Source: Henriciella sp. (lineage in GTDB: Bacteria > Pseudomonadota > Alphaproteobacteria > Caulobacterales > Hyphomonadaceae). Taken from it: a stretch of DNA of 64,000 nucleotides. The stretch lies in assembly GCA_029238175.1 (NCBI GenBank), contig JAQWGO010000129.1:1-64000 (forward strand), in the 5' to 3' direction. A program made the translations under genes and the position numbers. The notes beneath the pieces are model-generated. The model was given only the letters and a program-made list of their open reading frames with translations, was not told the origin of the DNA and ran no database searches. Below are positions 34,041 to 35,813 of the stretch, one piece after another (within the stretch, counting starts at the first letter, position 1; each line of letters starts with the position of its first letter).

Positions 34041-35813
34041 ATGACGAACAACTCATTTTCCGTGCCTGATTCTTTCGGTGGCCGCTATTGGTCCATGCGA
34101 GAGCAGGATGATGCCGCTATTCGCGCGCTAACCCCTGCGCTTGGTGGGAATGACCTTCTCGCGCGCCTGTTGGCCCCGCGCGGGACAAAGGCTGATGAGG
34201 TTGAAACGTTTCTAAATCCAACCTTGCGTGCGCTGTTTCCTGACCCAGCTAGTTTTCAGGATATGATGAAGGCCGCTGAGCTTGTTCTCGATGCGATCAT
34301 TGACGGTCAGCAGGTCACCGTGTTTGCCGATTATGATGTAGACGGGGGTACTAGTTCTGCAACGCTCGCGCGATATTTCCGCGCTTGGGGGCGCGAGTTG
34401 GGGCTTTATGTGCCTGACCGTCTGTTGGAGGGGTACGGCCCTAGTCCCGAAGCGTTTGAACACCTCAAAGCGCAAGGCGCTGATCTTGTTATCACCGTCG
34501 ATTGCGGCGCGGCGGCAACGGCTGCCTTAGCTAAAGCGGTCGCGATTGATCTGCCTGTTATCGTGATTGATCACCACTTGATGGGCAAGACGCCGCCAGA
34601 ATGCGCGGCGCTCGTAAATCCAAATCGCGCCGATGATGAAAGCGGGCAGGGGCACCTTGCGGCGGCAGGGGTCGTCTATGTGTTCGTTGCGGCTTTGAAT
34701 AAGTTGGCGCGCGAACGCGGCATCGCGCCAGATGGCGGGTTGCCAAACATCCTCGATTAGTTGGACCTCTGCGCCCTAGGAACGCTTTGCGATATGTCGC
34801 CGCTCGTTGGCGCAAACAGAGCTTTCGTCAAGCAAGGCTTGAAGATTTTGGAACGCGGCGGAAATACCGGATTGCGCGCCCTCGCGGATGTCGCGGGCAT
34901 CGGTAAAATCGAAACCGTCTATCATGCAACTTTTGTGCTTGGGCCGCGATTGAACGCGGGTGGACGCGTGGGTGACCCGTGGCTGGCAGCTAAGCTGCTG
35001 GCAACCGATGACCGAACCGAGGCTTTAGAGTTAGCAGAACGCCTGCACGGCCTTAACGATGAGCGCAAAGCGGTTGAAAGCGCGATCCTAGAACAGGCGA
35101 GTGTCGAAGCTCAAAAACAGATCGATGCTAATCCAGACACAGGCATCATAATTGCTGCCGGTGAAGGCTGGCATCCCGGCGTCATCGGCATCGTCGCTGG
35201 GCGCTTGAAAGACCGCTTTCATTTGCCAGCAATCGTCATCGGCTGGGGCGCTGGCCTGGGCCCAGTGGCGAAAGGTTCCGCGCGATCTGTGCGCGGTGTG
35301 AATATTGGCGACGCAATCTCCGCAGCCGCAAAACAAGGCATTATCCTGTCTGGCGGAGGGCACGCGATGGCGGGCGGTCTGAGCTTGGAGCCAGATCAAC
35401 TGCCTGTGCTGCGCGATTGGATGGACAAGCATATGGCAGATTTCCGCGAAGAGCGCGAAGCCGCCAAAGAGCTAACAATCGATGCACTCCTCGCCACATC
35501 ACAAGTTACGCCTGAGCTGTACGACACGTTGCAAACGCTTGGGCCTTTCGGGCAAGGCGCGCCTGAGCCCGTCTTCGCGCTTCGAGATGTTGAGATTACC
35601 CACACACGCCTGATTGGTGAGAGCCATTTAAAGATTACGGTCGAAGACGCCGGAAGCCGGGTTGATGCTTTGGTTTGGCGCTGTATCGGAACACCGCTTG
35701 GTGATGCCCTAATACAGCGGGGACGGGTCCATCTGGCGGGCCGTCTAAAAGACAATGAATGGAATGGCCGCCGTACCGCGCAAATCGAAGTGATTGATGC
35801 GGCGCGGGCTTAG
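34041..35813 (+). pseudogene. recJ: Single-stranded-DNA exonuclease RecJ interrupted by an in-frame TAG
   Basis: ORFs 34029-34760 and 34761-35813 are in the same frame and abut at a single TAG (34758-34760). N-half: VTVFADYDVDGGTSSATL, VIVIDHHLMG. C-half: LDLCALGTLCDMSPL, LGPRLNAGGRVGD, SGGGHAMAGGLSL. Confidence 0.85.

Follow-up and report, generated by a model that had tools for sequence, protein, structure and literature searches.

An in-frame amber codon in the only recJ gene of a Henriciella genome, most likely a point mutation that inactivated it recently or a wrong base in the assembly

The bacterial RecJ single-strand exonuclease is described by the NCBIfam recJ family TIGR00644 and by the enzymes of D. 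radiodurans (5F54) and T. thermophilus (1IR6). In D. radiodurans RecJ, two catalytic metals are bound by Asp79, Asp81, Asp83, Asp135, His159 and Asp223, the last belonging to motif IV, and alanine substitution of the metal ligands nearly abolishes the activity (PMC4846377). Stops within the frame of conserved bacterial genes have been reported widely, and most of them seem to be short-lived (Belinky et al. 2021, PMC7918605). The recJ gene described here resembles the known RecJ enzymes in its full-length frame, in its DHH, DHHA1 and OB domains and in its catalytic motifs, all of which lie in frame, but differs from them in that a single in-frame stop cuts it after motif III and before motif IV. 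It is also similar to the stops of Belinky et al. (2021), being a single stop with conserved flanks and an apparently short life; however, the filtered set of that study required a stop to occur in two or more species, whereas the present one was found in one genome only.

The window analyzed is a 64,000-nucleotide stretch of a Henriciella sp. contig, and recJ occupies positions 34041–35813 of its forward strand. The frame runs from ATG at 34041 to the terminal TAG at 35811–35813 and comprises 590 codons with one in-frame stop inside, TAG at codon 240 (34758–34760, forward strand), in the context ...GGLPNILD-TAG-LDLCALGTLCDMSPL..., just as had been read from the sequence alone. When the frame was read across this stop, it matched TIGR00644 over profile positions 2–544 of 546 with 508 bits against a curated cut-off of 397, while the halves scored separately gave 198 and 295 bits, so that the cut-off was passed only across the stop; the Pfam domains DHH, DHHA1 and RecJ_OB were all recognized in the read-across frame. 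The continuous recJ genes of the nearest relatives are ~84–85% identical to it. Since one family match bridges the stop and the relatives keep one continuous frame, the two halves are not chance neighbours, and RecJ is encoded here by one full-length gene that is broken solely by the TAG at 34758–34760. The second recJ that might compensate for the break was sought as well, and neither protein nor profile searches of the window's own genome returned another copy.

The position of the stop with respect to the active site requires one correction of the sequence-only reading, which had placed the DHH motifs in the N-terminal half. According to the translation, the alignment to 5F54 and the motif definitions in PMC4846377, the N-terminal piece (34041–34757, forward strand, 239 residues) contains motifs I–III of the DHH domain (DYDVDG, DCG and DHH) without motif IV; the break thus falls within the DHH domain, between motifs III and IV. 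The C-terminal piece (34761–35813, forward strand, 350 residues) starts upstream of motif IV and, judging from its translation and the family profiles, carries the rest of the protein, including DHHA1 and the OB domain, in agreement with what had been proposed. The motif IV residue Asp251, encoded at 34791–34793 (forward strand; codon checked) 11 codons past the stop, was found by counting along the alignment to correspond to Asp223, the metal-binding residue of the D. radiodurans enzyme (PMC4846377). Under the standard code motifs I–IV therefore do not lie on one polypeptide, and because the stop separates motifs I–III from motif IV, neither half possesses a complete active site. This is consistent with the earlier prediction that neither half is a full exonuclease, and neither piece would be expected to work alone. 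The Leu codon immediately after the stop (34761–34763) is TTG; in the 29 relatives read it is CTN. This TTG places U as the next base and a possible start codon directly behind the stop, which is probably a coincidence.

Alignment with related RecJ sequences, the check suggested for finding the ancestral codon, gave a nearly uniform answer. Among the relative loci readable at the site, which come partly from the same genomes present in two collections and so are not all independent, the codon matching the internal TAG was TGG in 48 of 49 and CAG in the remaining one. For the 48, the step from TGG to TAG is one base change. A stop at the aligned position was carried by none of the 49, that is, the sharing among relatives that would mark a conserved functional in-frame stop was absent, and no internal stop was detected in any other recJ across 105 genomes of the family. 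Single stops had been listed for two genomes (G012 and G075), but these matches extend to query position 591, the stop with which the query itself ends, and direct reading of G012 gave TGG at the internal site. The recJ of G020 looked split owing to a run of N, which is an assembly gap and not a second case. A two-ORF arrangement in close relatives, named in the sequence-only reading as the result that would count against a break, was looked for, and no two-gene recJ was found among the relatives. No further genome of this species turned up in which the base at the stop could be confirmed.

The remainder of the gene shows no trace of decay. When the window RecJ was aligned with those of 29 relatives, the other sequences proved to be invariant at 240 columns (99 before the stop and 141 after it), and the window protein has the shared residue in all of them; the frame has no frameshift and no further stop beyond codon 240. 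Its dN against sisters lies inside the range of the intact sisters, and its dN to outgroups, 0.256 against 0.238–0.254, stands at the upper edge, which is too little to claim relaxed selection. The marks of an old pseudogene, namely relaxed selection and additional stops or frameshifts, are accordingly missing, with 0 changes at the 240 invariant columns. It follows that recJ was under selection until just now and that, with the nearest relatives at ~84–85% identity, nearly all of the divergence predates the stop. A gene otherwise undamaged in this way implies a stop that is either very young or not real, and the earlier proposal of a recent break or a sequencing error is borne out by this and by the sense codon in all relatives.

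These two possibilities have to be weighed against each other and against the decoding of the stop. We give about an even chance to a recent single-base nonsense change, TGG to TAG, in the sole recJ of the strain or population. A somewhat lower, though still considerable, probability belongs to a consensus base error in a fragmented assembly, or to the calling of a base from a minority strain, in which case the recJ of the organism would be intact. The named neighbours of the RecJ protein are metagenome assemblies of Henriciella and other Hyphomonadaceae. The window's own genome, likely a metagenome assembly as well, amounts to 2.85 Mb in 181 contigs and is 95.4% complete, with 30 of about 40 tRNAs assembled; such fragmentation means that a base error would account for the same facts as a real mutation, including an isolated single base difference with no decay on either side. 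An assembly of poor quality would, however, show an excess of broken genes, and none was seen. About 20 genes of the window align to two relatives (G015 and G028), and recJ is the sole homologous gene with an internal stop in this syntenic part; the other stops in that comparison belong to shadow frames or precede the start codon. The 25 ABC-transporter and 34 short-chain-dehydrogenase matches of the same genome are likewise free of stops. The assembly is not generally poor, yet a single miscalled base among the 2.85 Mb would suffice.

Decoding of the internal TAG, by near-cognate tRNAs or a suppressor tRNA, into a low level of full-length RecJ had been left open by the sequence-only reading and now appears improbable. 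Global reassignment of amber, already considered unlikely there because many genes end in TAG, can be ruled out, as release factor 1 is present and intact in the genome (480 bits) and TAG serves as the normal terminator of 8 of the 21 window genes with homologues, recJ included. The proposed search for an amber suppressor detected no CUA anticodon among the 30 tRNAs found, a set that is incomplete and lacks tRNA-Trp. The tRNA counts of two relatives assembled as single contigs are 39 and 43, and tRNA-Trp, tRNA-Ile, tRNA-Ala(TGC), tRNA-Val(TAC) and tRNA-Thr(CGT), all present in G028, are absent from the present assembly, most likely because of assembly gaps; a suppressor could be hidden among the tRNAs so lost. 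The missing tRNA-Trp was also sought through the neighbourhood of secE, whose contig carries no tRNA; in G028 this tRNA is placed upstream of a frame that we take to be rpsJ. An active suppressor would probably leave further amber-interrupted genes. When the 30 best candidate pairs of ORFs joined in one frame by a TAG, recJ included, were taken from a 0.5-Mb sample of the same genome and scanned with Pfam or NCBIfam profile HMMs, recJ alone gave a family match bridging the TAG, a number of the other pairs being uninformative for want of any family match. A codon-usage scan for split genes proved too weak, ranking recJ 65th of 476.

The full constraint on both sides of the stop would suit read-through, but is equally expected with a very young stop, and a stop found in no relative bears no sign of being kept. 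The internal TAG is followed by U. Such a context goes with low read-through, less markedly in the case of UAG, and genes ending in UAG show no strong preference for U (PMC5289835). According to earlier work as summarized in PMC5289835, tRNA-Gln misreads UAG, and the Gln found in one relative at this position suggests that such a product could be tolerated. A leaky amber setting the RecJ level of the population, through a near-cognate tRNA or a suppressor encoded outside the assembled contigs, seems more doubtful still. Least probable, to the point of being scarcely credible, is the separate synthesis of two pieces that assemble into a working two-chain RecJ. Possible starts do exist: TTG at 34761 adjoins the stop, and ATG at 34794 is preceded by AGGA ~12 bases upstream. 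The break, however, interrupts the DHH domain, and Asp251 would be missing from both chains if translation resumed at ATG 34794, though not if it resumed at TTG 34761. Moreover, a two-gene recJ occurs in no relative, the run of N in G020 having only imitated one. Neither read-through nor a two-chain enzyme has positive support, and the event is most likely ordinary, a recent inactivating point mutation or an assembly base error, rather than a new way of reading recJ.

If the favoured nonsense mutation is real, TGG would have changed to TAG very recently in the single recJ gene of the strain or population, and release factor 1 would presumably stop translation at codon 240. The resulting 239-residue fragment, devoid of the motif IV metal ligand, is predicted to be inactive, and the downstream part of recJ would be made poorly or not at all; RecJ activity in cells with the stop allele would for these reasons be absent or very low. 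Loss of recJ seems to be survivable in this family. No recJ was detected by protein or TIGR00644 profile in two of its genomes, G030 and G111 (genus g3), of which G030 has a listed completeness of 100% in ~10 contigs and five sister species of its genus with recJ, so recJ-less lineages appear to persist. Two further genomes, G023 and G061, which may be incomplete, gave no recJ by the same searches. A real stop would present a natural bacterium just after the loss of RecJ and before decay of the gene, which would help modestly in judging to what extent Hyphomonadaceae depend on this enzyme. If the stop is an error, the case is only a reminder that reads should be checked before a lone stop in a fragmented assembly is interpreted.

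Upstream of recJ lie genes that presumably encode an aminotransferase, a homoserine dehydrogenase and a GlpX-type phosphatase; in G015 and G028, their homologues adjoin recJ in the same order. The common gene order ends right after recJ (window 35927–64000), and no homologues of the downstream window genes were found within ~40 kb in either relative. Elsewhere in the family comparison, second, divergent recJ-like genes were observed in G084 (C1:14947–16560) and G096 (C11:4–1392), with 35% and 43% identity, respectively.
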